Source: a virus | Virus record (IMG/VR): IMGVR_UViG_3300032285_002718 | Span: 1 to 42,214 of that record | Strand: one strand, 5' to 3' | Length of the DNA: 42,214 nt | Shown here: positions 14,390 to 39,823 of the stretch, piece by piece | How the letters are laid out: each line of letters opens with the position of its first letter | Position numbering within the stretch: the stretch's first letter is position 1 | The notes under the pieces: generated by a model | Told to the model about the DNA's origin: nothing | Seen by the model: only the letters and a program-made list of their open reading frames with translations | The model's database searches: none | Program-made: the position numbers and the translations under genes

Positions 14390-14411
14390 CAGGAACATAA
14401 CGGAATAAGAG

Positions 14412-16928: not shown

Positions 16929-16931
16929 ATA
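16925..16931 (+). promoter_or_regulatory. T4-type late promoter motif ATAAATA
   Basis: ATAAATA overlaps the stop codon of the S74 fibre gene. It is followed by an AGAGGAAA ribosome site at 16941-16948 and the ATG at 16954. The predicted leader is about 17 bases. Confidence 0.55.
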
Positions 16932-16953
16932 ATAGTAACAAGAGGAAACTAAA

Positions 16954-24501: not shown

Positions 24502-24508
24502 AGTAGTG

Positions 24509-24515
24509 TATTTAA
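24509..24515 (-). promoter_or_regulatory. Late promoter motif TTAAATA for gp14/gp15/Nudix
   Basis: On the minus strand TTAAATA ends seven bases before the gp14 ATG. The T4 spacing rule predicts an RNA start about two bases before the ATG, an essentially leaderless message. The motif abuts the plus-strand motif for gp13. Confidence 0.6.
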
Positions 24516-24522
24516 CTAAATA
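24516..24522 (+). promoter_or_regulatory. Late promoter motif CTAAATA for gp13
   Basis: CTAAATA ends exactly five bases before the gp13 ATG at 24528. Together with the adjoining minus-strand motif it forms the near-palindrome TATTTAACTAAATA at 24509-24522. No ribosome site is present. Confidence 0.65.
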
Positions 24523-24527
24523 TAAGC

Positions 24528-25286
24528 ATGAGTGATACAACTGATGCCCGTCAAGAAATTATAGATTACGTTACCAATATGCTAGGTGGCGGAATGGTCG
24601 ATGTTGAGTTAGAGCCATCTAATTATCAAACAGCTATTGACCGTGCCCTTGCTGTATATCGTCAACGTAGTGCAAATTCTGTTGAAGAAAGCTATGCTTT
24701 TATAACTGTAGATCAAGATGTTAACGAATATCAGTTAGCACCTGAAGTTATGAGTGTGCGCGAAGTATTCCGCAGAAGTATCGGATCTCGCACTGGCGGC
24801 GGCGACACAGGTACGCTATTTGAACCGTTTAATTTGGCCTATACAAATACCTATTTGTTAAGCTCTAGCAACATGGGCGGTTTAGCAACATATTTTGCGT
24901 TTGCAAGTTACCAAAATTTAGTAGGTAAAATGTTTGGTAGTTTTATCAACTTCCGCTTTAATCCTGCTAATAAGAAACTAACGCTAATGCAACGTCCAAG
25001 AGGACAAGAAACACTATTGTTATGGGTTAACAATCACAGACCAGATTTTGACCTAGTAAGAGATCCTTATGCAGGTATTTGGATTAAAGATTATACCCTA
25101 GCAACCTGCAAGATGATATTAGGCGAAGCTCGTAGCAAATTTAATCAAATTGCCGGACCTCAAGGCGGTACAAGTTTAAATGGCGATGCTTTAAAATCAG
25201 AAGGCCAACAGGAAATTGAAAAATTAGAGTTAGCTATTAGAAATAGTGAAACAGGTGAAACCCCAATGTGGTTTGTAAGAGGATAA
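24528..25286 (+). CDS. 13: Neck protein gp13
   Basis: Homologue of T4 gp13, the head-closure neck protein that sits under the portal. It has 252 residues. Diagnostic stretches shared with cyanophage-type gp13 are the N-terminal helix DARQEIIDYVTNMLGGGMVD, YQTAIDRALAVYRQRS, and the C-terminal DYTLATCKMILGEARSKF with IAGPQGGTSLNGDALKSEG. It is transcribed divergently from its functional partner gp14, with only 26 bases between the two start codons. No Shine-Dalgarno sequence precedes the ATG, and the late promoter motif ends five bases upstream. The next gene begins one base after its stop. Confidence 0.85.
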   Translation: MSDTTDARQEIIDYVTNMLGGGMVDVELEPSNYQTAIDRALAVYRQRSANSVEESYAFITVDQDVNEYQLAPEVMSVREVFRRSIGSRTGGGDTGTLFEPFNLAYTNTYLLSSSNMGGLATYFAFASYQNLVGKMFGSFINFRFNPANKKLTLMQRPRGQETLLLWVNNHRPDFDLVRDPYAGIWIKDYTLATCKMILGEARSKFNQIAGPQGGTSLNGDALKSEGQQEIEKLELAIRNSETGETPMWFVRG

Positions 25287-25287
25287 T

Positions 25288-25665
25288 ATGAAAATACGTG
25301 ACTTATTAGAAAGCGTTGGCGGTTCTAAAGCATTATCGCAAGATCAAGTAACTGCGATTCCTAATGCGCATTATTTTCCAGACTTAGATAACAGTAGTGG
25401 TTACGAAGCATATCGCTGGGGAGTAGCATTGGCAGGTATGCCAGATTTTCCAATGGAGCCAGCAGGTCCAACAGGGCAAAAATTAGTAACTATTGGTTAT
25501 ACCGATACAGATGATATCATCATCGATAGCACAAGTAAAATATTTGGCGCCCAAAAAATTCGCCTAACACCCAGAGGCAGTAACGAGCCCGGCGACACAC
25601 AAAAAGTTAGCCCAGTGTCAAACTGGAACGCTAAAAAGACCACCAAAAGAACCAAAAAAGATTGA
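25288..25665 (+). CDS. Small protein with capsid-targeting-like N-terminus
   Basis: A 125-residue protein of unknown function. The opening MKIRDLLESVGGSKALS resembles the short N-terminal peptides that route T4 internal proteins into the prohead, and contains L-L-E followed by Ser, which fits the (L/I)-X-E cleavage rule of the T4 prohead protease gp21. The middle (YEAYRWGVALAGMPDFPM, TIGYTDTDDIIIDSTSKIFG) looks globular. The C-terminus is basic and Lys/Thr-rich, ending KKTTKRTKKD, which would suit DNA contact. It starts one base after the gp13 stop and is probably translationally coupled. A virion-internal role is inferred, not shown. Confidence 0.6.
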   Translation: MKIRDLLESVGGSKALSQDQVTAIPNAHYFPDLDNSSGYEAYRWGVALAGMPDFPMEPAGPTGQKLVTIGYTDTDDIIIDSTSKIFGAQKIRLTPRGSNEPGDTQKVSPVSNWNAKKTTKRTKKD

Positions 25666-25690
25666 CCTTGTAATCACAATGTAATAAAAT
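25662..25690 (+). promoter_or_regulatory. Sigma70-type (early) promoter for dNMP kinase
   Basis: TTGACC at 25662-25667 and TAAAAT at 25685-25690 are separated by exactly 17 bases. The predicted start is near 25697, about 15 bases before the ATG, and an AGGAG ribosome site lies within the leader. This looks like a host-sigma promoter placed inside a late structural region. Confidence 0.65.
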
Positions 25691-25712
25691 ATAGTATCGA
25701 CTAGGAGATACT

Positions 25713-26369
25713 ATGATTATAGGTGTGTGCGGTTTTATTGGATCAGGCAAAGATACCATTGCTGATTATCTAACAAATTTCCACGGATTTAGACGCGAGA
25801 GTTTCGCCAACAGCCTTAAAGATGCTGTAGCACAGGTATTTGGTTGGGACCGCACAATGTTAGAAGGGCGCACTAAGATGGCCCGAGAGTGGCGTGAACA
25901 AGTAGATCCGTGGTGGGCAGAACGTTTAGGTATGCCAAATCTTACTCCACGTTGGGTACTACAATATTGGGGTACAGAAGTATGTCGCAAATCATTCCAT
26001 GACGACATTTGGATTGCCGCATTAGAAAATAAACTCCGTACAAGCAAAGACGACATTGTTATTAGTGATTGCCGATTCCCTAATGAAATTAAATCAATCA
26101 AAGCCGCAGGTGGCATTGTAGTCCGTGTTGTCCGAGGCCCTGAGCCTGAATGGTACGATGCCGCAGTTAGTGTAAATCACGGCCCAAATGGTAATACAAG
26201 CTGGGCGTTGAGCAAACAAAAATTAGAAACATTAAAAATCCATGCTTCGGAAACAGCATGGGTAGGAACTAATTTTGATGCTATTCTAGATAATAATCTT
26301 AGTATTGATGACTTGTATGATCAGGTTAAAAGTCTGGTCGGAGATCTCCCCGTTTCCAGGGTAGCTTGA
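25713..26369 (+). CDS. 1: Deoxynucleoside monophosphate kinase (T4 gp1 type)
   Basis: A 218-residue P-loop kinase expected to phosphorylate dNMPs to dNDPs for phage DNA synthesis. The P-loop is GFIGSGKDT at residues 7-15, equivalent to SGVKRSGKDT in T4 gp1. It is followed by DTIADYLTNFHGF, a lid-like EQVDPWWAERLG segment, LQYWGTEVCRKSFHDDIW, and VISDCRFPNEIKSIKAAGG, all typical of the phage family. It has its own sigma70-like promoter and an AGGAG ribosome site. Its last 44 bases overlap, tail to tail, the opposing small zinc-protein gene. Confidence 0.85.
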   Translation: MIIGVCGFIGSGKDTIADYLTNFHGFRRESFANSLKDAVAQVFGWDRTMLEGRTKMAREWREQVDPWWAERLGMPNLTPRWVLQYWGTEVCRKSFHDDIWIAALENKLRTSKDDIVISDCRFPNEIKSIKAAGGIVVRVVRGPEPEWYDAAVSVNHGPNGNTSWALSKQKLETLKIHASETAWVGTNFDAILDNNLSIDDLYDQVKSLVGDLPVSRVA

Positions 26370-26664
26370 GCTGGTGTAAAAGTCGCTGACAATTAGCGCA
26401 TACCGTTTTCAAATTTGCTGGACGGCAGTTATCTAAATTACCGTCCACAAAGTACACATCAAATTGATCAGGGTACTTGCTGTTAAAGTTACATCTATCG
26501 CAGGCATCCTTTTTCTTGTAGCCTGCTAACTGCCACTTGGTAAGACCAGGCTTCCTATTCCTAGCGCAATGGTCGCAGGTCGCTCGGTAGAATGTCCTAC
26601 CTTCTTTGTGATAATTAACTGCAACTGGTCTTTTACCGCATGTTTTACATAAAGATCTAATCAT
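26326..26664 (-). CDS. Small two-zinc-site protein with degenerate HNH motif
   Basis: A 112-residue protein with four CxxC knuckles (CKTC, CDHC, CDRC, CANC), enough for two zinc sites. The end VDGNLDNCRPANLKTVCANC follows the HNH/McrA layout D-x-N..N..NL..xC..C. However, the usual catalytic His before VDGN is replaced (YFVDGN) and the last His is Gln, so nuclease activity is doubtful. Similar proteins occur in T4-like cyanophages. I chose the ATG at 26664 over the one at 26691 (nine residues longer): a minus-strand TTAAATA at 26695-26701 would start RNA near 26689, inside the upstream ATG, and AAGGGCGGG lies just before 26664. It is convergent with and overlaps dNMP kinase. Confidence 0.75.
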   Translation of the reverse strand: MIRSLCKTCGKRPVAVNYHKEGRTFYRATCDHCARNRKPGLTKWQLAGYKKKDACDRCNFNSKYPDQFDVYFVDGNLDNCRPANLKTVCANCQRLLHQLKLPWKRGDLRPDF

Positions 26665-26694
26665 ACCCGCCCTTTTTCGTGCCCTTTCCATAGG

Positions 26695-26701
26695 TATTTA
26701 A
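26695..26701 (-). promoter_or_regulatory. Late promoter motif TTAAATA for the small zinc protein
   Basis: Minus-strand TTAAATA. The predicted RNA start near 26689 gives a leader of about 25 bases with a GGGCGGG-like ribosome site before the ATG at 26664. It lies back to back with the sheath promoter motif at 26725-26731. Confidence 0.5.
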
Positions 26702-26724
26702 CCAAGTATTTTTTGGTACAACCG

Positions 26725-26731
26725 CTAAATA
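26725..26731 (+). promoter_or_regulatory. Late promoter motif CTAAATA for the sheath gene
   Basis: CTAAATA with a predicted start near 26737, giving a leader of about 30 bases. The leader holds a GGGAG ribosome site at 26753-26757. The position rules out the upstream in-frame ATG at 26713 as the main start. Confidence 0.65.
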
Positions 26732-26766
26732 CTGATGAACAAACCATTACATGGGAGATGCACAGA

Positions 26767-29700
26767 ATGGCAACATTAAATTCACCAGGCGTATCAGTAA
26801 GCATAGTTAACGAAAGTTTTTATACCCCAGCGGCACCAGGAACAGTGCCTCTAATCTTTATTGCTACTGCCGCCAACAAGAAAAATTCATCAGGTACTGG
26901 CACAGCGGCCGGTACTACAAGTCAGTACAAAAATCAAGTATGGACTATTACAAGCCAGCGTGATCTTACAGACACATTTGGTACACCATACTTTGAAGTT
27001 GATTCAAGCAACAATCCAGTAAACGGTGGTGAGCGCAATGAGTACGGTTTACAAGCCGCATACTCAGTATTAGGTGTAAGCTCTAGAGTATTCGTTGCTC
27101 GTGCAGATGTTGACTTAGGACAATTAGTAGGAACAAGCTCAGCTCCATCAGGACCACCAGCAGGCGGTACATACTGGTTAGACACATCAAATACTAAATT
27201 TGGTGTTTTTGAGTGGGATGCAGGTTCTCAAACATTCAGCGCACAAAGCCTTACAGTAATCGACGGTTCAAACAAAGGTCTTGCAACTGTTAATGGTGAC
27301 GGTGTTACTATTGCTCCAAGTTTTGGCGCAGTTGGTGCTTATGCAATCACTACAGATTTGGGCAATACAAACGAAGTACAATACAAAAACCAAGACGGTA
27401 ATTGGGTACACGTGGGCTCATCAGGTGAGACAAACTTCACTACAAATGCTAACGTAAGCACATTTAGATCTACAACTTGGACAACAAGTTATCCAACAGT
27501 GCCTGGCGTTACAGCTAATCCAAGTTTTGCACAAGCATCTGGTTCATTGATTATTAACGGTACTACTATTGCAGTAAGCACAGCAAGTACAGCAGTTACA
27601 ATCGCACAAAGCATTAACTCAACATTACACACAAGTGGTATTGGTGCTAAAGTTAATTCAAGCAATCAATTAGATATCTATGCTGATGCTAACCCAGGGC
27701 AAATTACTATTGGTGGTACACAATCTACTGTTGCCGCACTAGGTCTTTCTGCTAAGACTTACTATGCTCCATCACTATTCCTTGGACCACATACACAATA
27801 TCCTGACTTTGGCAATAAGCCAAGCGGATCTGTTTATGTTAAAACAACAAGCCCTGATTCAGGAGCAAGTTGGATAGTCAAACAGTATAGCGCATCATCT
27901 CAGTCATTTACACAAATTGCCGCTCCTATCTATTCTTCTGCCGCTCAGGCAATTTATAGCTTGGATCTAGCAGGTGGTGGTGCTAACATTGGTGTTGGTA
28001 CATTGTTTGTTGAAAGCAACTTTAACCATGGTAACGGTACAGCAACAACATCTAGCAATTTTGCATCATTTGCAGACTTCCGTATTTGGAGACGCTCTGC
28101 TGTTGCTCCTACAGTAATTACAAGCACTGCACAAGCAAATCCTCCTACTTTACCAAACGGTTCTGTGCTAACAATCAAAGAAAGTATTCCTGGTTCTAGC
28201 AATTTAACAAATGAAGTAGCTATTACATTATCTGGAACAACACTATCACAGTTAGTCCTTCAGATCAATGCCGCAGGAAATACATTGGAATATACGTCAG
28301 CCGCATTAAACGGTGATGGTACTATTTCTATAACACACAAAGCAGGCGGAGAAATCAAGTTTAAGGATCCGGGCAACATCCTAGGATCAGCAGGATTTAC
28401 GCCATATACATTTAATGCTGTTTCAGACACATGGGTAGGAAATGCAAATTTCTATGCCGCAGGTACTAAAGAAGTTGACGGATATACACACAAAGCCAGC
28501 AATTGGGCTCCATTGGTGTACACTCCATCACAGACAGCACCTACAACAAGTCCTGAAGATGGAACATTATGGTTCAGCAATGTATTCAACCAAGTTGACA
28601 TCATGTATCACAACGGTACAAAGTGGCAAGGTTATAAGAATGCGTTCCCAAGCACTGACCCGGCAGGTCCTATTATATCAGTAACACAACCTGTGACACA
28701 AAGCACCGGTAACGCATTAGCTAACGGTGATATTTGGATCCAAACAGGTAATATGGACCAATACGGTCAGAACATTTATGTTTACAACGGTAGTACTCTA
28801 AAGTGGGTTCAACAAGATCCTACAGATCACACAAGTCCAAACGGTTGGGTGTTTGCTGATGCACGTTGGAGTGGTGCTGGTGACGATGTTGATCCAGATC
28901 CAATCGCTAAATTGTTATCATACGATTATGTTGATCCAGATGCACCTGATCCAGGTTTGTATCCACGCGGTACACGCTTGTTTAACCTACGTCGTTCTGG
29001 TTACAATGTAAAACGTTACGAAGCTAATCATATTAACATCAACTCTAATAATGGTGTTAATATCCGTACTGGCGAGCCAATGAATGGTTCTAATTCAACT
29101 ACGCCTTACAATCCAGCTCGTTGGGTTTCCGTAAGTCCAAACAACGATCACGGTGTAGGCACATTTGGTCGCCTAGCACAACGTGGTTATGTTGTTAAAG
29201 CATTGAAAGCAATGATTGATACTAATAGCTCTATAAGAGATACAGATACATTAGTATTCAACTTAATGGCTTGCCCAGGATATCCAGAAACTATTCAAAA
29301 CATGGTTGGCTTAAATCATGACCGTGCGCAGACAGCATTCGTTATTGGTGATACACCATTCCGCTTGCCAGCTAACGCTACAGCAATCCAAGCATGGGGC
29401 GGAAGCACTACTGCTTTAGATAATGGTGAAGCAGGCGCAGTAACACGTGATGACTACACAGCTATGTTCTATCCAAGTGGTTATACAAACGATAATACAG
29501 GCAACTATATTGTTGTTCCACCGAGCCACATGATGTTACGTACATTCATCAACAGTGATGCTGTTAGCTATCAATGGTTTGCACCAGCTGGTGTAAGACG
29601 TGGTGTTGTTGATAACGCTTCTTCAGTTGGTTATATCAATTCTACAACAGGTGAATTTGTACCAGCGGCATTACCACAAGGTATACGCGATACAATGGCA

Positions 29701-30138: not shown

Positions 30139-30146
30139 TGGGAATG

Positions 30147-30153
30147 GTAAATA
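30147..30153 (+). promoter_or_regulatory. Late promoter motif GTAAATA for the tube gene
   Basis: GTAAATA lies in the 38-base sheath-tube gap. The predicted leader is about 18 bases and contains an AAGGAG ribosome site. Confidence 0.55.
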
Positions 30154-30176
30154 ACATAGAACAAGGAGCATATTAA

Positions 30177-30803
30177 ATGGCTATTGCAAGTTTAAGTAAA
30201 TTATCTGTACCACTACCCCCAGGGCAAAGCTCAACAAGCCAAGGCTTGTTGATGCCAAAACTCAAGTACAGATTTCGTGTAACACTATTGAATTTTGGGG
30301 TATCAAAACCAACTACAGAAATAACAAAACAAGTTGTAACTGTTGGTCGTCCTAATTTAACATTCGATGAAGTTGAATTACACGTTTATAACAGCCGTGT
30401 TAAGTATGCAGGTAAGCACAAGTGGGAAGATATCCAACTTGTTATCCGTGATGACGTAACTGGTGCTGTTAGCAAGTTAGTAGGCGAACAGCTACAGAAA
30501 CAATTTGACTTCTTTGAACAAGCAGTTGCGAGTTCTGGTATTGATTATAAGTTTGTTACTAAAATTGAAATTTTAGATGGCGGTAACGGACGTTATACAC
30601 CAAACGTTCTTGAAACATTTGAACTAGATGGTTGTTTCGTTAAGCAAGCTCAATATCAGCAAGGTGACTACAGCTCATCAGATCCTATGGATATTACACT
30701 ATCTATTGCTTATGATAATGCTTTACAGACAGGCCCAACAGGTAATCCTATTGGTATTGGCACAGCAGTTGGCCGTACATTAGGTACATTAGCTACAGGT
30801 TAA
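30177..30803 (+). CDS. 19: Tail tube protein gp19
   Basis: A 208-residue homologue of T4 gp19, the inner tube subunit stacked in hexameric rings inside the sheath. Family features are LLMPKLKYRFRVTLLNFG, KQVVTVGRPNLTFDEVELHV, GKHKWEDIQLVIRDDVTG, the helix KQFDFFEQAVAS, and the C-terminal LETFELDGCFVKQAQYQQGD with DITLSIAYDNA. The order sheath then tube matches T4. It has its own late promoter motif and AAGGAG ribosome site, fitting high expression, and is closed by a strong hairpin terminator. Confidence 0.92.
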   Translation: MAIASLSKLSVPLPPGQSSTSQGLLMPKLKYRFRVTLLNFGVSKPTTEITKQVVTVGRPNLTFDEVELHVYNSRVKYAGKHKWEDIQLVIRDDVTGAVSKLVGEQLQKQFDFFEQAVASSGIDYKFVTKIEILDGGNGRYTPNVLETFELDGCFVKQAQYQQGDYSSSDPMDITLSIAYDNALQTGPTGNPIGIGTAVGRTLGTLATG

Positions 30804-30821
30804 TCTACATAACACAAACAT

Positions 30822-30852
30822 AAAAAGCCTGGAGGTAAATCCAGGCTTTTTT
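30822..30852 (+). terminator. Rho-independent terminator after the tube gene
   Basis: The stem AGCCTGGA/TCCAGGCT has a GGTAAA loop, is extended by a flanking A-tract/T-tract, and ends in TTTTTT. It closes the sheath-tube unit. Confidence 0.9.
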
Positions 30853-30856
30853 ACGA

Positions 30857-30863
30857 CTAAATA
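30857..30863 (+). promoter_or_regulatory. Late promoter motif CTAAATA, five bases before the ATG
   Basis: CTAAATA begins four bases after the terminator and ends five bases before the ATG at 30869. No ribosome site is present. The predicted RNA start coincides with the A of the ATG. Confidence 0.65.
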
Positions 30864-30868
30864 TCTAT

Positions 30869-32449
30869 ATGCCATCCATAGTTGAATATCTCTCAGGTTT
30901 TACAAATCAAGGTCAAATGCATGACTTCGCTCACGCCAGTCGTTTGTACCTTGACGATACTTATGCTCTTGCTCCTAAAAACAGCTGGATATTTTATGTA
31001 GTATTTTCTATCAATCCTGCCGCAATATCAGAAGTGCAATGGATTAATCAAAATAGAGAATATGAAGCAGGAATGTTAGTTAAATCTGCTGACTTGCCAA
31101 AATTTAAAATTGCAACAGAAACTATTAATCAGTACAATAGAAAAACTTTAGTACAACAAAAAATTACATACGAACCTATTAGTATATCATTCCATGATGA
31201 TATGAGCAACGTAACAAACAGCTTATGGGTAAACTATTTTAGATACTATTACAGAGATACATGGTGGGGACAAAGTGTAAGAACAGGTGCTACCTTAACA
31301 TCAGGACAACGACCTGCGGCATTTCAAAATAACTGGAAGTACAGTCCAGAAATCAATATTAAAGATCCATTAGGAAGAGCAGGCATCAACGGTAAATTTG
31401 GTCTAAACAATAATCAGAGTGTGCCTTTCTTTAATGCTATTACTATCTATCAATTAAATGCAAAAAGATTTACCAGCTATGTATTAGTGAATCCTTTATT
31501 AGAATCTTGGGAACACGATCAGCTCGATCAAAATCAAGGAAGTAAATTTGCACAGAGTAGATGTACAGTTGGATATGAAACTGTGTTTTACGGCGAGGGG
31601 CGTGTGGCCAGAGATAACCCTCAAGGATTTGCGACTTTCCATTATGATCGAACCCCGAGCCCGTTGAGTCTAGCAGGGGGTGGCAACAGTAGTATATTTG
31701 GTCCCGGTGGTATTGTTCAAGGTGCAGAAGATATATTTGGCGCTACTGATAAGCTACTTAGTGGACAATCTGCAGGTGGCGGCATCCTTGGCGTAACAGG
31801 AATTGCAATCCAAGGATCAAATCTAATCAGGAATTATCAAAATATTACTTCAGCGTCTTTGCGAGCTGAGGGTAAGAGTATTTTAAATAGCGCAATTAAA
31901 GGAGCCCTTACTAACCAACAGGGAGGTATATCTGGGCTGATTGGCGGTGGATTGGGTTCACTAGGAAAGTCGTTAGGATTTGGTCCACAGGTTGGTACCA
32001 TGTTAGTGGGGTCAAATTTCCAGCCAACGCAAACTATAGCCACTGCTGGCGCGATCGGATCCTCAGCTCCGCCCACTATGACACAGATAGATGAAAACTT
32101 TGCAAAACAACAAGCAAGTGCGCAGACTTTAGTATTCAACGTTGACAGTCTTCTTAGTATAGACGAAGCAGATAAGGAAGAGGTCATAGCTCAGCAAGAA
32201 GCGTTATTGACTCGCGCTCAGAAAAATTTGGATTACGCCACTGCTAATAAAGATACAATCGATGCGGCAGTTAATGCCGCATACGCACAAGATGGTCCTG
32301 CCGCCGCGGCATTGATACGACAACAAGCCGCACAGCAAGGCTATGTTGATCCCCTACAATCAGAGGCAGAGATAGAAGCATATAAAGAGAATCTTAAAAA
32401 CATTGATATCCGTTTCAATCCGTCGTTGCCTCAGCCACAAGTACCCTAA
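30869..32449 (+). CDS. Putative tube-fold virion protein (baseplate or tail associated)
   Basis: A 526-residue protein. Residues about 1-260 show a pattern typical of the phage tail-tube/initiator fold: WIFYVVFSINPAA, then MLVKSADLPKFKIATETINQ and QQKITYEPISISFHDDMSN, followed by WVNYFRYYYRDTWWG and ITIYQLNAKRFTSYVLVNPLLESWEHDQLD. This recalls tube-like T4 proteins such as gp54/gp48/gp19, but I cannot assign which. Residues about 270-420 are Gly/Ser-rich and hydrophobic in patches, with GGGILGVTGIA and GGISGLIGGGLGSLGKSLGFG. The C-terminus is helical and ends in a Pro-rich tail. It lacks a ribosome site and may be translated from a leaderless mRNA. Baseplate initiator or tail completion are the likeliest roles. 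Confidence 0.55.
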   Translation: MPSIVEYLSGFTNQGQMHDFAHASRLYLDDTYALAPKNSWIFYVVFSINPAAISEVQWINQNREYEAGMLVKSADLPKFKIATETINQYNRKTLVQQKITYEPISISFHDDMSNVTNSLWVNYFRYYYRDTWWGQSVRTGATLTSGQRPAAFQNNWKYSPEINIKDPLGRAGINGKFGLNNNQSVPFFNAITIYQLNAKRFTSYVLVNPLLESWEHDQLDQNQGSKFAQSRCTVGYETVFYGEGRVARDNPQGFATFHYDRTPSPLSLAGGGNSSIFGPGGIVQGAEDIFGATDKLLSGQSAGGGILGVTGIAIQGSNLIRNYQNITSASLRAEGKSILNSAIKGALTNQQGGISGLIGGGLGSLGKSLGFGPQVGTMLVGSNFQPTQTIATAGAIGSSAPPTMTQIDENFAKQQASAQTLVFNVDSLLSIDEADKEEVIAQQEALLTRAQKNLDYATANKDTIDAAVNAAYAQDGPAAAALIRQQAAQQGYVDPLQSEAEIEAYKENLKNIDIRFNPSLPQPQVP

Positions 32450-32470
32450 CTAAAATATTGATTATTTAAA

Positions 32471-32848
32471 ATGCAAAAAATATATACAAATATCCCACAA
32501 GTTAAAAATAGTGATAGCGCCGATAGCACTAGGAATACTATAAACAATTTTTATTCGGTCGATCTTCCAATTGATGCAGGAACGTTTGAAGCAGTTAAAG
32601 GTTTCTTTGAACACAACGGGTTTAGCAAAGTATCGTCAGATACTATTGCCTATATAATTTTATATCAAGCATATATTGATAATTACAATCCTATGCAAGT
32701 CTTAGAAAACATTCAAAGCCTTAATGGTATACAACTAAACGCATTAGTTACTGAAATTTTAAATTTCAATAGATTTAAAACAAGCTTCTTAGGATTTAGT
32801 GTCAATTATCAAACTAACAGTATAGTGAGCAAAGAGATTTTAGCTTAA
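32471..32848 (+). CDS. Small conserved phage protein of unknown function
   Basis: A 125-residue mixed alpha/beta protein (FFEHNGFSKVSSDTIAYIIL, YNPMQVLENIQSLNGIQLNA) without a recognised motif. The N-terminus MQKIYTNIPQVKNSDSADST is polar and probably flexible. It lies between a tube-like protein and gp4, and its stop overlaps the gp4 start (TAATG), so translation of gp4 is probably coupled to it. No Shine-Dalgarno and no clear TAAATA motif precede it; the gap reads AT-rich. A virion assembly role is suggested by position only. Confidence 0.6.
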   Translation: MQKIYTNIPQVKNSDSADSTRNTINNFYSVDLPIDAGTFEAVKGFFEHNGFSKVSSDTIAYIILYQAYIDNYNPMQVLENIQSLNGIQLNALVTEILNFNRFKTSFLGFSVNYQTNSIVSKEILA

Positions 32849-33282
32849 TGAGAAATACAGCCAAGGGTCGCTTCAACATGAAGAACCCAGAAAAATATAT
32901 AGGAACCAAGGCACCTATCTATCGCAGTAGCTGGGAAGTGGCAGTCATGCGGATGTGTGATAACAATCCGGCAATACAGCAATGGGCAAGCGAAGCAGTA
33001 CAAATACCCTATAGGGATCCCCTTACTGGTAAGCAGACAGTTTATGTTCCGGATTTTTTAGTTTGCTTTCAAGACAAGCAAGAAGTCAAACACGTTGAGC
33101 TTTGGGAAATTAAACCAGCCAATCAGCAGATATTAGAGAAGGTCGGAAAGAATCCCTACAATCAGGCACAGTTTGTTAAAAATCACGCCAAGTGGGCGGC
33201 CGCGAACGCATGGGCTAGACAAAAAGGCATGAAATTTAGGGTTTTAAACGAGAACGATATTTTCCATACTGGGAAGAAATAA
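32848..33282 (+). CDS. 4: Head completion protein gp4, PD-(D/E)xK nuclease-like
   Basis: A 144-residue homologue of T4 gp4 (gp50/4), needed to finish the DNA-filled head before tail joining. Shared features are GRFNMKNPEKYIGTKAPIYR with SSWE, the NPAIQQWASEAVQIPYRDPL block, and the end AKWAAANAWARQKGMKFRVL. The residues Glu of SSWE, Asp of VPDFLV, and Glu and Lys of LWEIKP form a PD-(D/E)xK arrangement like that of TnsA-type nucleases, suggesting it could trim or hold DNA ends. Its start overlaps the previous stop by one base. Confidence 0.85.
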   Translation: MRNTAKGRFNMKNPEKYIGTKAPIYRSSWEVAVMRMCDNNPAIQQWASEAVQIPYRDPLTGKQTVYVPDFLVCFQDKQEVKHVELWEIKPANQQILEKVGKNPYNQAQFVKNHAKWAAANAWARQKGMKFRVLNENDIFHTGKK

Positions 33283-33283
33283 A

Positions 33284-33290
33284 ATAAGTA
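33284..33290 (+). promoter_or_regulatory. Variant late promoter motif ATAAGTA before gp16
   Basis: ATAAGTA, one base off ATAAATA, ends five bases before the gp16 ATG at 33296, the same spacing as at other genes here. It is weak alone; the spacing is what supports it. Confidence 0.4.
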
Positions 33291-33295
33291 ATATT

Positions 33296-33778
33296 ATGAC
33301 TAAGAAACTTGAAGAGTTGTTAAACATAAACCCTGCAGAAGAAAAGCCAGTAGAAGCGGCTCCTACAGCGCCAATTCCTACCCACATGAATCTGCAACAG
33401 ACTTTAGAAGAATTTGACAAAATTTCAGCCGCACTTCCACAAGTTAGAGGGTTAGGTGATATCAGCGATAGCGAGCTCGATGCTCTAGCAAAGAAAGCAG
33501 AAGATGCGTTTGATGACATTTACGACCTAGGAATGAACGTAGAAGCACGTTATAGCACACGTATGTTTGAAGTAGCGGGCAACATGTTAAATGCCGCAAT
33601 TACAGCCAAATCTGCAAAGATTGATAAAAAATTAAAAATGGTCGAACTACAGCTTAAGAAGCTGGCTATCGATAAGAAAGATAACCCAGGCGAAGGAAAT
33701 GGCGTTGTAGCAGGTGAAGGTTACGTAATTGCTGACCGTAATAGTCTCATGGCAAAACTTAAAAACATGGATAAATAA
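33296..33778 (+). CDS. 16: Terminase small subunit gp16
   Basis: A 160-residue protein matching cyanophage-type gp16 in layout. A flexible acidic, Pro/Ala-rich N-terminus comes first. A central helical hairpin follows (DALAKKAEDAFDDIYDLGMN; YSTRMFEVAGNMLNAAITAK; IDKKLKMVELQLKKLAIDKK), which in this family forms the oligomeric coiled-coil ring. A short C-terminal tail completes it (GYVIADRNSLMAKLKNMDK). The ring regulates DNA recognition and gp17 activity. Its length is close to the T4 protein (164). Position between gp4 and gp17 supports the call. No Shine-Dalgarno sequence is seen. Confidence 0.75.
   Translation: MTKKLEELLNINPAEEKPVEAAPTAPIPTHMNLQQTLEEFDKISAALPQVRGLGDISDSELDALAKKAEDAFDDIYDLGMNVEARYSTRMFEVAGNMLNAAITAKSAKIDKKLKMVELQLKKLAIDKKDNPGEGNGVVAGEGYVIADRNSLMAKLKNMDK
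33771..33777 (+). promoter_or_regulatory. Late promoter motif ATAAATA overlapping the gp16 stop
   Basis: ATAAATA overlaps the gp16 stop codon. The predicted start near 33783 leaves a leader of about 11 bases with TAGGA before the ATG at 33794. Confidence 0.5.
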
Positions 33779-33793
33779 AGGGTAGGAATAACT

Positions 33794-34381
33794 ATGAAAA
33801 CATTTAAAGAATACCTAGCCGAAAGCAAAAAAGTATACGATTTTAAAATTAAAATCGCAGGTGATTTTGCAGGCGAAGACAAGCTCAAGCAGATGCTAGA
33901 ACGCTTTGTCATCTCAAGTTTCAAGAAAGCAGGCACTACACCAATACAGGCGCTACCACTAGATTTTCCAAAAATCCGTAATTCGGAAGTTACTGTTTAT
34001 GAAGTTGCTTTAGAGTATCCAACTACTCCTTACGAACTACACGAATATATTTCAGCAGGAATTGAAAAAGGCCCTGACTATGTAGTTGTAAGAAAACCTA
34101 ATGAACCAACTGAAGCATATCAGCTCGATGATGAAATGCACAAAGGTGCGTTGCTTCAAGATCCAAACTACACAGAAGTGGCAAAAATAGATACTAAAGA
34201 CTATTATGGCACTGAATACAATACAAGTCTTGTAAAGACATTGAACGATGACCTTAAGGCCATGCGTAAAGAAAGAAGCGAAACTATTCCAAGTACCGCA
34301 GAGGGAAAGACAACAAATAGTATAGCTCAAAACAACACAAGTCCAATTCAACAAACGGACTATGATCCAAGGAAGAAATAA
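33794..34381 (+). CDS. Putative capsid-targeted internal protein
   Basis: A 195-residue protein. Its first residues MKTFKEYLAESKK closely match the capsid-targeting sequence of T4 internal proteins (T4 IPIII starts MKTYQEFIAEA), including L-A-E followed by Ser where the T4 prohead protease would cut after (L/I)-X-E. Residues about 15-95 look like a small alpha/beta domain (DFKIKIAGDFAGEDKLKQML; PKIRNSEVTVYEVALEY). The C-terminal part is polar and disordered-looking (AEGKTTNSIAQNNTSPIQQT). If the targeting reading is right, the mature protein is packed with the DNA and may be delivered into the host. Its function is unknown. Confidence 0.65.
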   Translation: MKTFKEYLAESKKVYDFKIKIAGDFAGEDKLKQMLERFVISSFKKAGTTPIQALPLDFPKIRNSEVTVYEVALEYPTTPYELHEYISAGIEKGPDYVVVRKPNEPTEAYQLDDEMHKGALLQDPNYTEVAKIDTKDYYGTEYNTSLVKTLNDDLKAMRKERSETIPSTAEGKTTNSIAQNNTSPIQQTDYDPRKK

Positions 34382-34382
34382 C

Positions 34383-35165
34383 ATGCAAATGATCGACGTA
34401 TTAAAAAAGTTGGCTGAACTTGATGAGGCAACTTCGCCAAAGCCAATGGTTCAAATGGCCAACGACCCAACAGTCGCAGTCATTACAGAATCTATCACAG
34501 GTGAGGCAGGTATGCCAGTGGCGGCTCCAACAGCGGCTCCAACAGTTCCTGCAAGTTTCAGCATTAATGCTTCTGCCGCAAACGGCAATGAAGTTAGCAC
34601 AATGCTAAGAGACATCCTAAACCTAGCAGGTGTTAAAGAAGTTGGCCCTCAAGATATTAATCAACCACAAGCACTAACAGCTGAGCCAGGTCAAGGCGGC
34701 AACGATATCAAACAAGCACTTGATGCTATTGGTAACATTGAAGACGAAGACATGGGCGGAATGGACCCTGCACAAATGGGCGGCGAGCTTCCTATGGACA
34801 TGGGCGACACGGGTGCAGAAATGGGCACAGCCGGTCCAGCAGGCGGCACTGATGTTGCATCAATGGCTGACGAAGTTAGCGATATGGCTGATCAACTTGC
34901 AGGTACAAGCAAAGAAGAATTAGGCTTAGAAAGTTTAAGAATGTTTGACAACAGCCCACAAGAAGCAGTTAAAGATTACAATCCAAACGATTTTGCAAAT
35001 ATTATCAACAAAGTCCGTCAATTTGATTACACATCTACTCCAGCAAACAACAACCTACCAGAGACAATTGAAAAAACAGAGGCTCCAGTACAGGAAGGCG
35101 AATCATTACTAGATATGACTAACAAATTATTCCAAGATTATCAAAGTTTTATCAAGAATATCTAA
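34383..35165 (+). CDS. Acidic low-complexity protein next to terminase, unknown
   Basis: A 260-residue acidic protein. An amphipathic N-terminal helix (MQMIDVLKKLAELDEATSPK) is followed by an Ala/Pro/Thr-rich stretch, a short helix (STMLRDILNLAGV), a Met/Gly/Asp-rich segment (MGGMDPAQMGGELPMDMGD), and a helical C-terminus ending LFQDYQSFIKNI. The composition suggests a scaffold-like or head-interior protein; no enzyme motif is present. I chose the ATG at 34383 because GGAAG lies seven bases upstream and it begins one base after the previous stop; an in-frame ATG at 34362 lies inside the previous gene. A terminator follows. Confidence 0.6.
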   Translation: MQMIDVLKKLAELDEATSPKPMVQMANDPTVAVITESITGEAGMPVAAPTAAPTVPASFSINASAANGNEVSTMLRDILNLAGVKEVGPQDINQPQALTAEPGQGGNDIKQALDAIGNIEDEDMGGMDPAQMGGELPMDMGDTGAEMGTAGPAGGTDVASMADEVSDMADQLAGTSKEELGLESLRMFDNSPQEAVKDYNPNDFANIINKVRQFDYTSTPANNNLPETIEKTEAPVQEGESLLDMTNKLFQDYQSFIKNI

Positions 35166-35180
35166 TAGTTTTATAACTCC

Positions 35181-35208
35181 AAATAGGCTCTTCGGAGCCT
35201 ATTTTTTT
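35181..35208 (+). terminator. Rho-independent terminator with TTCG tetraloop
   Basis: The stem AAATAGGCTC/GAGCCTATTT has a TTCG loop and is followed by a T-run. It ends the unit carrying gp4, gp16 and the putative head proteins, two bases before the next promoter motif. Confidence 0.92.
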
Positions 35209-35210
35209 CA

Positions 35211-35217
35211 GTAAATA
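35211..35217 (+). promoter_or_regulatory. Late promoter motif GTAAATA, five bases before the gp17 ATG
   Basis: GTAAATA begins two bases after the terminator T-run and ends five bases before the ATG at 35223. GAAG next to the ATG is too close to serve as a normal ribosome site. Confidence 0.6.
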
Positions 35218-35222
35218 GAAGT

Positions 35223-36815
35223 ATGAGCTTATCTAACAGCAACAACTTAATCAAGACAGCAAACAAAGCAGTCCGATATTCAGAACAGGATCTAATTGAT
35301 CTCGAGCGATGCATGGATCCAGTAGACGGTCACAAGCATTTTCTTAAGAATTTTTTCTTTATACAACATCCAACTCGCGGGCAGATAAAATATGAAGCCT
35401 ACGGATATCAAGATGCTTTGGTAGATAGCTTACACGAATATCGATTTAACGTAAACATGTTACCGCGACAAAGTGGCAAGACTACTACAGCAGTAGGTTA
35501 CTTGCTTTGGTATGCTATGTTTAACCCTAACGTAACTATTTTAATTGCCGCACACAAATATACAGGCGCACAAGAAATTATGCAACGCCTGCGTTATGCC
35601 TATGAAACTTGTCCTAATCACATACGATGTGGAGTTAAAAGCTATAACAAACAGTCAATTGAGTTTGACAACGATTCACGTATTGTAGCACAAACAACTA
35701 CAGAAAATACAGGTCGTGGTATGTCTATATCATTACTATACTGCGACGAGTTTGCGTTCGTTCCGGACAACATTGGTAAAGAGTTCTGGACTTCAATATC
35801 ACCAACACTGGCAACTGGTGGTAAAGCGATTATTACGTCAACTCCTAACTCAGACGAAGATCAGTTTGCTGAAATTTGGTTTGGAGCTATCAAGATAGAA
35901 GATGAGTACGGAAACGAAAATCCTAACAAGATAGGTATTAACGGTTTCCATGCATACACAAGCCACTGGTCAGATCACCCGGATCGTGACGAAGAATGGG
36001 CCGCAGTTGAAAGAGGGCGCATTGGAGAAGAACGTTTCCGTCGTGAGTACGGTTGTGAATTCTTAGTCTACGACGAAACACTGATCAACAGTATTCACTT
36101 AGCCGCAATGCAAGGAATTGAACCTGTTATGAAAATGGGCCAGTGTCGCTGGTATAAAAAGATAGACCCTAAAATGACCTATATTGTTAGCCTAGACCCT
36201 GCGTTAGGCACAGGCGGAAACTATGCGGCGATTGAAGTTGTTGAGATTCCTAGTATGATACAAGTAGGTGAGTGGCATCACAATCTGACCCCGGTACAAA
36301 GCCAAGTTAAAATAATGCGAGACATCTGCAAGTTTATAGACGATGCATGTACTGAAAAAGGTATTCAAAGCACTATCTATTTTTCAGTGGAAAACAACAC
36401 TTTAGGAGAAGGCGCTTTAGTAGCTATTAACGAACTAGGCGAAGAAACATTTCCAGGACTTTTCTTAAGTGAGCCCATTAAAAAGGGACATGTGCGCAGA
36501 TATCGTAAGGGATACAACACTACAGAAAAGGCCAAAATCGCTACCTGTGCCAAGCTAAAACATCTAATAGAAACTAAAAAGCTCACAATTAACTCGGCTC
36601 CATTTATTAGTCAACTTAAGACGTATATTGCTACAGGAACAAGTTTTGCAGGAAAAAACGAAGAGCCCGATGACTTAGTTGCAAGTATGTTGGTAAATTT
36701 ACGCATGGTTATGCAGTTACAGGACTGGGATCCTGCGGTTTACGATACTATGCACGACTACGTAAATAACGAGATGGAACTGCCCTTGCCTATCTACATA
36801 AGTACCAATTTTTAA
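35223..36815 (+). CDS. 17: Terminase large subunit gp17
   Basis: A 530-residue packaging motor and headful nuclease. The ATPase half has Walker A MLPRQSGKTTT near residue 80, Walker B LLYCDEFAFV near 172 and the coupling motif ITSTPNSDED near 203. The RNase H-fold nuclease half begins at VSLDPALGTGGNYAA (near 324), with further acidic residues in FSVENNTLGEG (near 390) and EEPDDLVAS (near 482), the expected metal-binding triad. It is shorter than the 610-residue T4 protein. Upstream are a terminator and a late promoter motif with the fixed five-base spacing, and no ribosome site, suggesting modest, separately controlled expression. Confidence 0.95.
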   Translation: MSLSNSNNLIKTANKAVRYSEQDLIDLERCMDPVDGHKHFLKNFFFIQHPTRGQIKYEAYGYQDALVDSLHEYRFNVNMLPRQSGKTTTAVGYLLWYAMFNPNVTILIAAHKYTGAQEIMQRLRYAYETCPNHIRCGVKSYNKQSIEFDNDSRIVAQTTTENTGRGMSISLLYCDEFAFVPDNIGKEFWTSISPTLATGGKAIITSTPNSDEDQFAEIWFGAIKIEDEYGNENPNKIGINGFHAYTSHWSDHPDRDEEWAAVERGRIGEERFRREYGCEFLVYDETLINSIHLAAMQGIEPVMKMGQCRWYKKIDPKMTYIVSLDPALGTGGNYAAIEVVEIPSMIQVGEWHHNLTPVQSQVKIMRDICKFIDDACTEKGIQSTIYFSVENNTLGEGALVAINELGEETFPGLFLSEPIKKGHVRRYRKGYNTTEKAKIATCAKLKHLIETKKLTINSAPFISQLKTYIATGTSFAGKNEEPDDLVASMLVNLRMVMQLQDWDPAVYDTMHDYVNNEMELPLPIYISTNF

Positions 36816-36821
36816 TAAATA
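36815..36821 (+). promoter_or_regulatory. Late promoter motif ATAAATA, five bases before the ATG
   Basis: ATAAATA overlaps the last base of the gp17 stop and ends five bases before the ATG at 36827. No ribosome site is present. Confidence 0.65.
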
Positions 36822-36826
36822 CACAC

Positions 36827-38953
36827 ATGAATGCTATAGAACTAATTGCACAAGATTTATTCGACAAGGTACGTAGTCGATTCTCTAACCTACAAATGGG
36901 CGACGAATCAGGCGCAGTAACTATCGATCCAACAGAAGCTCGATTCTTTGATTTTGATTTCGTTGTAGAAGGAAATAATCTAGGACGTGTGAGCGTAAGT
37001 ATTAACGAGCTAGGCAATTTAAAGTTATTCTACAGCCAAGGAATTGTAGAAGACCACGATCCTGTTACACAGGAATTTTGGTTTGATTTTTTAAGAGAAA
37101 TGAGACAATTTGCCAAGCGTAGATTGTTACGATTTGATACTAGAGATATTACTAAAGGTAACCTAGAGAAAAACGATTTCCAATACCTAGCAACAAATGG
37201 ATCTAAGGAAGATAACATGACAGAATCACAAATGTACGGTAGTTCAAAAAGTAGCTATCGCCCGTTAGAAAAAACATTATTAATTATTCGCCACAATACC
37301 AAAGTTGGTGAAGACCGCGGTGCTCGTAGCCGTCCTAATAACATTAAATCTGTGTTCATTCAAAATGAAGCAGGTGAACGATTCAAATATCCATTTGTGC
37401 ATTTAGCAGGTGCTAAGGCCATGCAACGTCACGTTGCTAACGGCGGCATGCCATATGATGAAGCAGGTAGTGCTATTATCAAAATGAGCGAAAATATCCG
37501 TGCATTAAGTACATTCAAGCGTCAAGTAGGAAATGCAGAACAACTAACACAAGAAGCAGTTGGTATTGTTGACCGTGCAAGCAGTAAACTATCTACACTA
37601 AGAACAACTATTGAAAACTTAGCCAAACAAACACATTACGAAGCATGGAGAGAAAACTTAGAGAACGTTGACCTCTCAGAACAATCAGAATTAGATCCAG
37701 CAACATTAGAAGATTATAAATCTAAATTTACAATATCAAGTTACAAAGAAGACTTAACACAATACTTTCCGTTGCTGTACAGTATCATGAGAGAAACAAG
37801 TGAAATTGATCTTGAAGATTACGTAGGCGAAGAAAAAGAAGAAATGTGTGATGCATGCGACAAGCCAGTTGATGACTGCGGTTGTGATGATCACGAAGAA
37901 ACAAAAGAAGGCATAGAAGCATTTGAAGCATGGGCCGATAAAGTTGCTATGGAAGTATTTGATGAAATAGAAGAAGCAGGTAGCCCAGCACAGCAGGCTG
38001 CGATTGCTATCAACATGAAAAAACATCATCAGAAACCTAAAAGTATGGAAGAAGGTGCGTACCAAGATTTAGGTCCAAACGGCAGAGAAATTTATGCTAA
38101 GGTACAAGCACTTCGCGACAAATTCCGCAGTGGTGAAATTACTCCTAACGAAAAGATGCAAAGCGAGTTTGATCAACTATTAGTTGGTGCAGGTATGGAT
38201 CCTGAATTTGTAGAAACAGAATGGAACAGAATTACAGGTAATAGTTCTAAGCCTACTCTAGATCCTAGCATGAGAAAATCTGCTCCTCCAATGTCAGCTC
38301 CTACAGATAGCGATGACGAAGATGATGACGCAAGCTTCTTACAAAAATTACGTATGCAAGCCAAGAGCGGTTCAATCAAGCCAGGTGCCGACACAGGTGA
38401 AGTTGACGAAGAAATGGAAGAGACTAATATTCATCCAGCTCAAATTGCAGAGTTAGTATTGCCACATATTGATCGTGAAACAGGTGGTTGCCCACTAGGT
38501 GCTACTGGCGTTGGTATCAATATTAAGAAACAAACAGGATCTGCAAGAGCAGGCGAGTTAGCTGAAAAGTTAGTACATCATTTACAGGCAAAATATCAAG
38601 CAGAAAGTGAGTCTAGACAACAAATGGAAAGTATGCGTAGATTAGCAGGCCTACCTCCGCTATCCGAAGCAGAAAAGAAAACTATGAGTCGTGCCGCTAA
38701 AGGTGTTATGAAGTACGGTAAAGACGGCATGAAGGCATTAGCTAAAGCTGGTAAAGAAGGCAAGAGCTTAGACAAGATCCGTGACAAGTACAACAAGTAT
38801 GACGAAGGTAAAGATTCGTTTGATCCGTTAAAACATGTTAAGAATCCTACAGCAGGTGAAAAGAAAGCCGCCAAAGATGTTAAACGCGGTAGCTATGCAG
38901 ACCGTGCGGCAATGTTAAAATCAGCTGAGAAAGACGGCCGATTAAAGAAATAA
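36827..38953 (+). CDS. Large phage protein of unknown function, probably structural
   Basis: A 708-residue protein. Residues about 1-340 look globular and resemble a protein found in T4-like marine phages (FFDFDFVVEGNNLGRVSVSI; YRPLEKTLLIIRHNTKVGED; FKYPFVHLAGAKAMQRHVAN). A cysteine cluster CDACDKPVDDCGCDD near residues 342-356 may bind zinc. After it come an acidic linker, a segment SMEEGAYQDLGPNGREIYAK, a Met/Pro/Asp-rich linker, HPAQIAELVLPHIDRETGGC, and a strongly basic C-terminus (KSLDKIRDKYNKYDEGKD; AAKDVKRGSYADRA) that could contact DNA. LSEA in the late part fits the (L/I)-X-E prohead protease rule. A head-interior or DNA-ejection role is a guess from composition and from position next to gp17. 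Confidence 0.6.
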   Translation: MNAIELIAQDLFDKVRSRFSNLQMGDESGAVTIDPTEARFFDFDFVVEGNNLGRVSVSINELGNLKLFYSQGIVEDHDPVTQEFWFDFLREMRQFAKRRLLRFDTRDITKGNLEKNDFQYLATNGSKEDNMTESQMYGSSKSSYRPLEKTLLIIRHNTKVGEDRGARSRPNNIKSVFIQNEAGERFKYPFVHLAGAKAMQRHVANGGMPYDEAGSAIIKMSENIRALSTFKRQVGNAEQLTQEAVGIVDRASSKLSTLRTTIENLAKQTHYEAWRENLENVDLSEQSELDPATLEDYKSKFTISSYKEDLTQYFPLLYSIMRETSEIDLEDYVGEEKEEMCDACDKPVDDCGCDDHEETKEGIEAFEAWADKVAMEVFDEIEEAGSPAQQAAIAINMKKHHQKPKSMEEGAYQDLGPNGREIYAKVQALRDKFRSGEITPNEKMQSEFDQLLVGAGMDPEFVETEWNRITGNSSKPTLDPSMRKSAPPMSAPTDSDDEDDDASFLQKLRMQAKSGSIKPGADTGEVDEEMEETNIHPAQIAELVLPHIDRETGGCPLGATGVGINIKKQTGSARAGELAEKLVHHLQAKYQAESESRQQMESMRRLAGLPPLSEAEKKTMSRAAKGVMKYGKDGMKALAKAGKEGKSLDKIRDKYNKYDEGKDSFDPLKHVKNPTAGEKKAAKDVKRGSYADRAAMLKSAEKDGRLKK

Positions 38954-38977
38954 CAAGTTAACTACTTTTTAAAAGAG

Positions 38978-39004
38978 AGGCAGAAATTTTCTGCCTTTTC
39001 TTTT
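38978..39004 (+). terminator. Rho-independent terminator
   Basis: The stem AGGCAGAA/TTCTGCCT has a three-base loop and is followed by TTTTCTTTT. It separates the packaging/head genes from the methyltransferase. Confidence 0.85.
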
Positions 39005-39010
39005 GACTGG

Positions 39011-39017
39011 ATAAATT
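39011..39017 (+). promoter_or_regulatory. Late promoter variant ATAAATT, five bases before the ATG
   Basis: ATAAATT follows the terminator by six bases and ends five bases before the ATG at 39023. No ribosome site is present. Confidence 0.5.
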
Positions 39018-39022
39018 AGTAT

Positions 39023-39823
39023 ATGGATAATATAGAATTTCACTCACTAGAGCAACAGGACGAATTTATTGTTAATTTGTTCAATAAAAAACGTAATGGT
39101 TTTTTCTTAGATATAAGTGCAGGGCATCCAATAGTTGCCAGTAACTCTTATACGCTAGAACAACATTTTGGATGGACTGGTTTTGCATTTGACATACAAG
39201 ACTGCGAAGCCCGTTGGCAATGGAGTAGCAAACGTGCCAATTCATTTGTGCAAGCAGACGCAACATCTGCACAATTAACGGAATTTCTTAAAAAGAATAT
39301 ACCAGAAGATCTTGTAGTTGACTACATATCTGTAGACGTGGATGCTGACGGTACAAGCCTAAGTTTAGCCGTACTAAAAAGAATTTTAGACTCCGGAATT
39401 AAATTCAAAGCAATGACCTTTGAGCACGAAAAGTATATGCACGGCAATGAACCTAGAAATGAATCTAGACAGTTATTGTCCAGTTTAGGATACGTTCCGT
39501 TATTTGGTGATGTAAAGGCATGGGCGGCAAAACCAGAACAATATAGTGAAAATGAATTTTTTGAAGACTGGTGGATACATCCTCAATACTTTGATAGTTC
39601 TATACTAACAGCACAACGCTCAGAACTATATAGTTTTGAATGTATCGATGTGCTTCGTGAAGTTACTGGTAATACCTATACTGCACAACACAATTTCTGT
39701 AGGAGTTTTCCAGCAGAAGCAAAAATATGGTGGAGCCCGGAAGAAGAACGTAACTGGCCCAACACCGTAGCACAATTGATAAAATATAATCAAAATAAAA
39801 GAGATCTTGGCTTGACAAGCTAA
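39023..39823 (+). CDS. FkbM-like SAM methyltransferase
   Basis: A 266-residue class I SAM-dependent methyltransferase that looks closest to the FkbM/Methyltransf_21 family, which usually methylates hydroxyl groups of sugars or small molecules. The SAM-binding start is FFLDISAGHPIVASNSYTLE (near residue 27), followed by GWTGFAFDIQDCEARWQWS, then VDYISVDVDADGTSL (near 99) and FKAMTFEHEKY. The C-terminal 90 residues add a Trp-rich extension (FFEDWWIHPQYF, IWWSPEEERNWPN). It is the second methyltransferase in the window and seems unrelated to the fused one at 19756. The target is unknown: glycan, DNA precursor or virion component. It ends inside the gp32 promoter. Confidence 0.7.
   Translation: MDNIEFHSLEQQDEFIVNLFNKKRNGFFLDISAGHPIVASNSYTLEQHFGWTGFAFDIQDCEARWQWSSKRANSFVQADATSAQLTEFLKKNIPEDLVVDYISVDVDADGTSLSLAVLKRILDSGIKFKAMTFEHEKYMHGNEPRNESRQLLSSLGYVPLFGDVKAWAAKPEQYSENEFFEDWWIHPQYFDSSILTAQRSELYSFECIDVLREVTGNTYTAQHNFCRSFPAEAKIWWSPEEERNWPNTVAQLIKYNQNKRDLGLTS

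Follow-up and report, generated by a model that had tools for sequence, protein, structure and literature searches.

A T4-type late promoter apparently fused to the start codon predicts leaderless late mRNAs in an uncultured phage group

Introduction

IMG/VR virus record IMGVR_UViG_3300032285_002718, analysed here over its whole length of 42,214 bases (the window), is a genome fragment with 40.7 % G+C in which several phage genes have the hexamer TAAATA ending five bases before the ATG. TAAATA is the core of the phage T4 late promoter box, and was found to be exact at four window genes and present as one-base variants at two others. In T4 the 8-base late box lies about one helical turn before the start of transcription, with its first base at −13 (PMC2988020). 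With the first base of the box at −13, the five bases following TAAATA would occupy −5 to −1, and transcription would begin on the A of the ATG (+1). The question raised by this locus is whether such genes have their late promoter joined directly to the start codon and are transcribed as mRNAs with no leader. Taken together, the window and its relatives make it very probable that a T4-type late promoter is fused to the AUG in this large group of giant T4-like phages, giving predicted leaderless mRNAs.

The window has PHROG matches for gp13 (head–tail adaptor Ad2), the tail tube, a tube-like protein of 526 amino acids (aa), head closure, the gp17 large terminase, the sheath, gp32 and UvsX, together with a weak match for the small terminase. 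Among isolates, the PA5oct-like Pseudomonas jumbo phages are nearest, with 49 % gp17 identity for phage 30-3.

Methods

The distance d is the count of bases separating TAAATA from an ATG, where this ATG begins a frame of 60 codons or more. As a control, counts of d were averaged over the 14 alternative orderings of the TAAATA letters. Relatives were collected from IMG/VR using the window gp17 as query (80 loci, 57–99 % identity), and PA5oct gp17 as query gave 79 further loci, the PA5oct-side set. Eight long relatives, represented by whole or near-whole contigs, were G001 (200 kb, gp17 90 % identical to that of the window), G004, G005, G006, G009, G012, G013 and G016 (354 kb). All group members are metagenomic, with gene starts read from sequence. 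The isolates compared were T4, Syn9, nt-1 (KVP40-like), PA5oct, Munch (Rak2-like) and Campylobacter phage CP30A.

Sequence properties at d=5 were taken from 102 sites after removal of near-copies. For class counts, d=4–7 was taken as the short (leaderless) class and the leadered class required a Shine–Dalgarno (SD) site, with starts having neither excluded. As many loci are orthologous, raw counts are not independent; counts per protein cluster and after removal of near-copies are therefore also given.

Results

Spacing between box and start codon

The original prediction reported a fixed spacing of five bases and no usable SD site at six window genes, and proposed a genome-wide count of TAAATA-to-ATG distances. 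All six spacings are exact (Table 1), no SD core is present at any of the six sites, and the count gives a sharp peak at five in the genomes of the relatives. Across the 80 loci, d=5 was found in 184 cases against a control mean of 12.7, and across the 79 PA5oct-side loci in 101 cases against 7.4. For the long genomes, the numbers of d=5 genes relative to control were 9/0.79 (G001), 8/0.43 (G004), 6/0.29 (G005), 7/0.79 (G006), 5/0.50 (G009), 6/0.50 (G012), 5/0.29 (G013) and 14/1.43 (G016). No comparable peak at five was seen for other orderings of the TAAATA letters, and there was none in the isolates T4 (1/0.57), Syn9 (0), nt-1 (0), PA5oct (2/1.07) and Munch (1/1.36). The distribution of d in the 80 loci and eight long genomes was bimodal, with the peak at 5, a nearly empty range at 9–15 and a second cluster at about 17–35; the values for G001 were 16 genes at d=3–8, one at d=9–15 and 20 at d=16–26.

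Many of these loci are orthologous, such that a few promoter–gene junctions inherited unchanged could in principle give a common spacing without selection. However, TAAATA at d=5 was found in 41 protein clusters, and in gp17, for which identity inside the set of relatives drops to about 55 %, the spacing is 5 in 126 of 138 genes although spacer bases 1–4 have diverged to near-random. Shared ancestry as the sole cause is therefore considered extremely improbable.

Campylobacter phage CP30A (JX569801, 26 % G+C) has three or four TAAATA-N5-ATG genes, for example at 63021 and 99676, against a control of 0.5. These may be a second, unrelated case or chance, and CP30A cannot be judged because the cases are too few and the genome too A/T-rich.

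Sequence properties and upstream terminators

An SD core was present at 0 of 102 sites at d=5, compared with 75 of 152 at d=17–32. The base preceding the ATG at d=5 was T in 81 %, C in 15 %, A in 4 % and G in 0 % of sites (a pyrimidine in 98/102), a preference absent in leadered genes (T 34 %, C 20 %), and the other four spacer bases were nearly free. If the A of the ATG is +1, base −1 lies outside the mRNA and its preference must be transcriptional; given that start, the pyrimidine is read as a putative transcription initiator signature. The group resembles the T4 late promoters (PMC2988020) in the TAAATA core, the T before the start point and the presence of a gp55 homologue in relatives, and T4 late boxes favour T at the fifth base and A or G at the sixth base after the box.

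Among starts at d=4–7, 168 were ATG and seven GTG or TTG, and the excess was in ATG only, with GTG and TTG at background. This AUG-only pattern is consistent with leaderless mRNAs but not diagnostic, because leadered genes also start mostly with ATG (95 versus 8). The 5′ RNA structure did not separate the classes, which were both relaxed (+0.72 and +0.67 kcal/mol over shuffled).

A terminator-like hairpin was found within 45 nucleotides (nt) upstream at 37 of 102 d=5 sites, compared with 1.6 in shuffles, and at 6 of 91 leadered genes. The sequence 5′ of the box is T-rich at d=5 sites, at least partly because terminators end there. For the gp17 terminator, a comparison of 20 orthologues showed 90 % of cells paired and 16 double changes versus 5.8 when shuffled (0/500 shuffles). 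With a terminator directly before its promoter, a gene would be shielded from upstream transcription and expressed mainly from its own leaderless mRNA.

That many boxes directly follow a terminator also bears on the alternative that TAAATA is a translation element, S1-binding or an SD substitute, within a longer leader transcribed from upstream promoters. A/U-rich sequence 5′ of a start codon does aid initiation without an SD site, as this alternative supposes, but no ordering of the letters other than the late box peaks at five, the same box is found further upstream in SD-bearing genes, the divergent gp13 and gp14 have no upstream gene with which to share a transcript, and leadered genes do not show the −1 preference. 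A translation element is thus very unlikely.

Identity of the promoter and position of the start

The assignment to the T4 late promoter in the original prediction stands for the TAAATA core but not for the full TATAAATA, of which only a weak preference at −13/−12 remains. Several observations weigh against a T4-type promoter with a start exactly at the ATG. The full 8-mer TATAAATA followed by three to eight bases and ATG does not occur in the window, and the TA of the T4 box at −13/−12 is relaxed at d=5 (A39, G28 and T19 at −13; A52 at −12). The proteins on which T4 late promoters depend, gp55, the co-activator gp33 and the sliding clamp gp45, were not seen in the 42-kb window, which is a genome fragment and in which no gp33 search was made, and T4 gp45 gave no match by phmmer in the group genomes. 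Leadered genes have a weak pyrimidine–purine signal at the expected start and a slightly stronger one a base earlier; the true start may thus shift by one base. At d=7 the third base before the ATG is a conserved A, which permits a 3-nt leader.

Natural variants of the late box do exist, such as a/gC at −13/−12 in Aeh1 (PMC2988020). Homologues of gp55 with a conserved core were found in the relatives G001, G005, G006 and G016, and that of G001 matches gp55 of the solved entry 7d7c (E=2.6e-5). Genes for gp55 homologues lie at 103907–104845 (minus strand) in G001, 44040–44945 in G005, 32937–33899 in G006 and 70756–71622 in PA5oct. The gp55 homologues of the group have an insertion of about 110 residues between an N-terminal motif (YLNNRDLL) and the conserved core, which the gp55 of T4, Syn9 and nt-1 lack.

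The signals at displaced positions could indicate that the RNA starts one to four bases before the ATG, giving ultra-short leaders of 1–4 nt rather than strictly leaderless messages. RNA polymerase usually has a latitude of one or two bases in choosing its start, counts at d=4, 6 and 7 also exceed the control (24, 27 and 42 versus about 10–14), and the A three bases before the ATG is present in 92 % of 24 d=7 sites. The peak is nevertheless clearly at 5, where a pyrimidine at −1 occurs in 96 % and the A of the ATG falls exactly at the T4 +1, and we consider ultra-short leaders unlikely as the general explanation.

A promoter fused to the AUG, as originally proposed, is strongly supported by the spacing peak, the gap at 9–15, the lack of SD sites and the −1 pyrimidine. 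It is further supported, at the level of sequence, by the restriction to AUG, the frequent upstream terminator, the gene-specific conservation and the gp55 homologues of relatives. We infer three steps: that TAAATA is the gp55 promoter in these phages, that the RNA starts on the A and that this RNA is translated leaderless. The TAAATA core, which occupies one of two fixed positions, would be recognised by host RNA polymerase together with gp55, the sigma-like factor of the phage. Genes of the first class have five bases between box and ATG, and the start, about one helical turn downstream of the box, would be the A of the ATG; the resulting late mRNA would be translated by recognition of its 5′-terminal AUG, a form of initiation that in other bacteria involves intact 70S ribosomes. 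The d=4, d=6 and probably d=7 layouts would be near-leaderless relatives of the d=5 layout. In the second class the box lies about 17–35 nt upstream, which would leave room for a leader with an SD site, and leaders of intermediate length would be avoided.

Distribution of the two classes among genes

Most genes keep a constant class: those for terminase, neck and tail completion are largely leaderless, and those for the tail tube and sheath are leadered (Table 1). The two-class scheme of the original prediction is thus real, but its rule of low-copy leaderless and high-copy leadered genes holds only as a tendency. Most packaging, neck and non-virion genes fall in the leaderless class, and sheath, tube, major capsid, fibre and endolysin genes in the leadered class; however, the 195-aa protein is split (51 leaderless, 57 leadered), the gp13 gene of G016 is leadered and several genes with leaders do not encode bulk structural proteins. 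Leaderless genes in G016 and G001 include those for an ATP-dependent protease, an acetyltransferase, an endonuclease, a radical-SAM protein, a nucleotidase, a small-terminase-like protein and a virion protein, and leadered genes there include fibres, tail spikes, the tube, an endolysin, a phosphate-transporter subunit and a homing endonuclease. The major capsid protein has a strong SD site, and the portal gene is at d=4 in G005 and G006.

A separate gp17 pass over 165 records found a leaderless-type start in 132 and none in 27, with six records cut off; the 27 include the isolates PA5oct, Munch, T4, Syn9 and nt-1. On the gp17 tree the class label needs 9 changes versus 16.6 when shuffled, indicating that the leaderless state is inherited with some losses, and PA5oct adjoins a leaderless lineage. 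The gp17 start codon is unchanged where the leader state differs: locus L079 has TAAGTA-N5-ATGAGTAAATCACTTGACGG, loci L233 and L267 have GGAG-TTTAA and then ATG, and all three open the same MSKSLDGVLI peptide.

Features of the window

The features are collected in Table 1. Two minus-strand genes missing from the original prediction, gp14 and more weakly an open reading frame (ORF) of 121 aa, also belong to the short-spacing class. At 24499–24528 the TAAATA boxes of the divergent gp14 and gp13 lie on opposite strands with only a few bases between them, and the predicted late promoters of the two genes practically overlap.

The longer spacing and ribosome site originally described for sheath, tube, S74 fibre and gp32 were confirmed for the first three, and gp32 has an SD site but no nearby TAAATA. 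In the sheath, tube, S74 fibre and 374-aa genes, TAAATA lies 22–35 nt upstream, together with a purine-rich stretch that is an SD site or resembles one. The late box at 26726 falls inside a longer sheath frame that begins at TTG 26713; translation of the sheath probably begins not at this TTG but at ATG 26767, which follows GGGAG.

The label FkbM given previously to the gene at 39023–39823 was not borne out by any PHROG (E≤0.001) or Pfam (E≤0.01) match. A 267-aa family was rejected as a further leaderless case in the window; its relatives are leaderless with TAATTA, but the window start has no such box. In PA5oct (NC_071039.1, 128846; locus L096, 29688) the annotated large terminase start sits in a terminator-like hairpin (AAAAGGGTGTTATGCACCCTTTT), and orthologues point to the later ATGGCAGCAG as the likely true start.

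Table 1. Predicted promoters, terminators and leadered starts in the window
Feature	Position	Strand	Layout	Orthologues and other evidence
Leadered fibre protein, ATG 14412	14384–14414	+	TAAATA, 22-nt gap	
Leadered 374-aa protein, ATG 16954	16926–16956	+	TAAATA, 22-nt gap with AGAGGA	
Predicted promoter of gp14 (gene 23299–24501, minus; ATG at 24501)	24499–24514	−	TAAATA-N7-ATG	20/22 short class, mostly d=7; 2 leadered
Predicted leaderless late promoter of gp13 (head–tail adaptor Ad2, 24528–25286)	24517–24528	+	TAAATA-N5-A(TG)	25/30 leaderless, 5 leadered
121-aa ORF (26326–26691), weak short-class member	26691–26700	−	TAAATA-N3-ATG	Same layout in G001, 41994–42359
Leadered tail sheath, ATG 26767	26726–26769	+	TAAATA, 35-nt gap with GGGAG	56/58 leadered with SD, 2 leaderless
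Leadered tail tube, ATG 30177	30148–30179	+	TAAATA, 23-nt gap with AAGGAG	63/63 leadered with SD, 0 leaderless
Terminator-like hairpin directly upstream of the 30858 promoter	30824–30857	+	Hairpin and T run	Sequence; class enrichment
Predicted leaderless promoter, 526-aa tail-tube-like protein (30869–32449)	30858–30869	+	TAAATA-N5-A(TG)	76/80 leaderless, 4 leadered
Variant box, gp16-like small terminase (33296–33778)	33285–33296	+	TAAGTA-N5-A(TG)	81/81 leaderless, 0 leadered; mostly TAAGTA in first set
Leadered 195-aa protein, ATG 33794	33772–33796	+	TAAATA, 16-nt gap with AGGA	Family split between classes
Intrinsic terminator adjoining gp17 promoter	35182–35210	+	9-bp stem, TTCG loop, T run	Stem supported by covariation across 20 orthologues
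Predicted leaderless promoter, gp17 large terminase (35223–36815)	35212–35223	+	TAAATA-N5-A(TG)	138/138 classified orthologues leaderless, 0 leadered
Predicted leaderless promoter, 708-aa virion protein (36827–38953), directly 3′ of gp17 stop	36816–36827	+	TAAATA-N5-A(TG)	142/164 leaderless, 22 leadered
Terminator-like hairpin upstream of the 39012 box	38978–39009	+	Hairpin, T-rich tail	Sequence
Variant box, 266-aa ORF (39023–39823)	39012–39023	+	TAAATT-N5-A(TG)	Four TAAATT-N5 cases in family

Discussion

Leaderless mRNA itself is already known. No report of leaderless late genes in T4-like or gp55-dependent phages was found in the literature searched, most subscription papers lying outside it, and the T4-type late-promoter version is apparently new. 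The spacing between box and ATG is mostly 16–35 nt in Syn9, the KVP40-like nt-1, PA5oct and Munch and mostly 9–30 nt in T4, whereas in the present group many boxes are fused to the start codon. PA5oct (Arenbergviridae), the nearest cultured relative, is similar in gene order from gp13 to gp17 and in having a gp55 homologue, but differs in that its late genes are mostly leadered with SD sites and show no d=5 peak.

In Deinococcus–Thermus, a promoter −10 element about 6–7 bp before the ORF gives leaderless mRNA, as tested experimentally (PMC12340547). Those cases are cellular genes under a housekeeping sigma factor, whereas in the phage group a late phage sigma factor is predicted. Mapped 5′ ends in Lactococcus cremoris show leaders that are either shorter than 5 nt or long, with none of 4–14 nt (PMC10986495). 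The gap at d=9–15 corresponds to leaders of about 4–10 nt, matching L. cremoris, with the lengths here derived from promoter position.

The lytic Thermus phage phiYS40 is reported to make leaderless mRNAs, while host IF2 rises and IF3 falls (summarised in PMC3594737). It differs from the present group in its Thermus host and its transcription system, and no phage gene for IF2, IF3 or the ribosome-hibernation family S30AE was found in ten genomes. It is conceivable, though rather doubtful, that late in infection the phage shifts host translation to favour its leaderless mRNAs over leadered host mRNAs. The agent of such a shift could be a phage bS21, present in two long relatives, or another factor. 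If this were true, promoter position would set both the timing of the gene product and its route of initiation.

Phage bS21 genes lie at 232944–233180 (minus strand, with TAAATA-N7-ATG) in G016, 111767–111931 in G017 and 170985–171143 in PA5oct. A tie between bS21 and the leaderless layout was considered and dropped, as bS21 is present in the non-leaderless PA5oct and was not found in G001; no link was shown. Searches of bacterial genomes with gp17 or bS21 as query gave no useful host match.

T4-type late transcription is among the best-studied phage gene switches. If the present reading is correct, it also exists in a form that combines promoter and start codon into a single unit of about 12–14 bases, and translation takes the leaderless route. 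Annotation of such phages would gain as well, since a start codon that lacks an SD site can be recognised by its promoter. The group would also offer a clean test system, with the same gene present with and without a leader in close relatives and with an identical start codon. Essential late genes, including those for the terminase, neck and tail completion, would then be made without ribosome-binding sites in a widespread group of uncultured phages.

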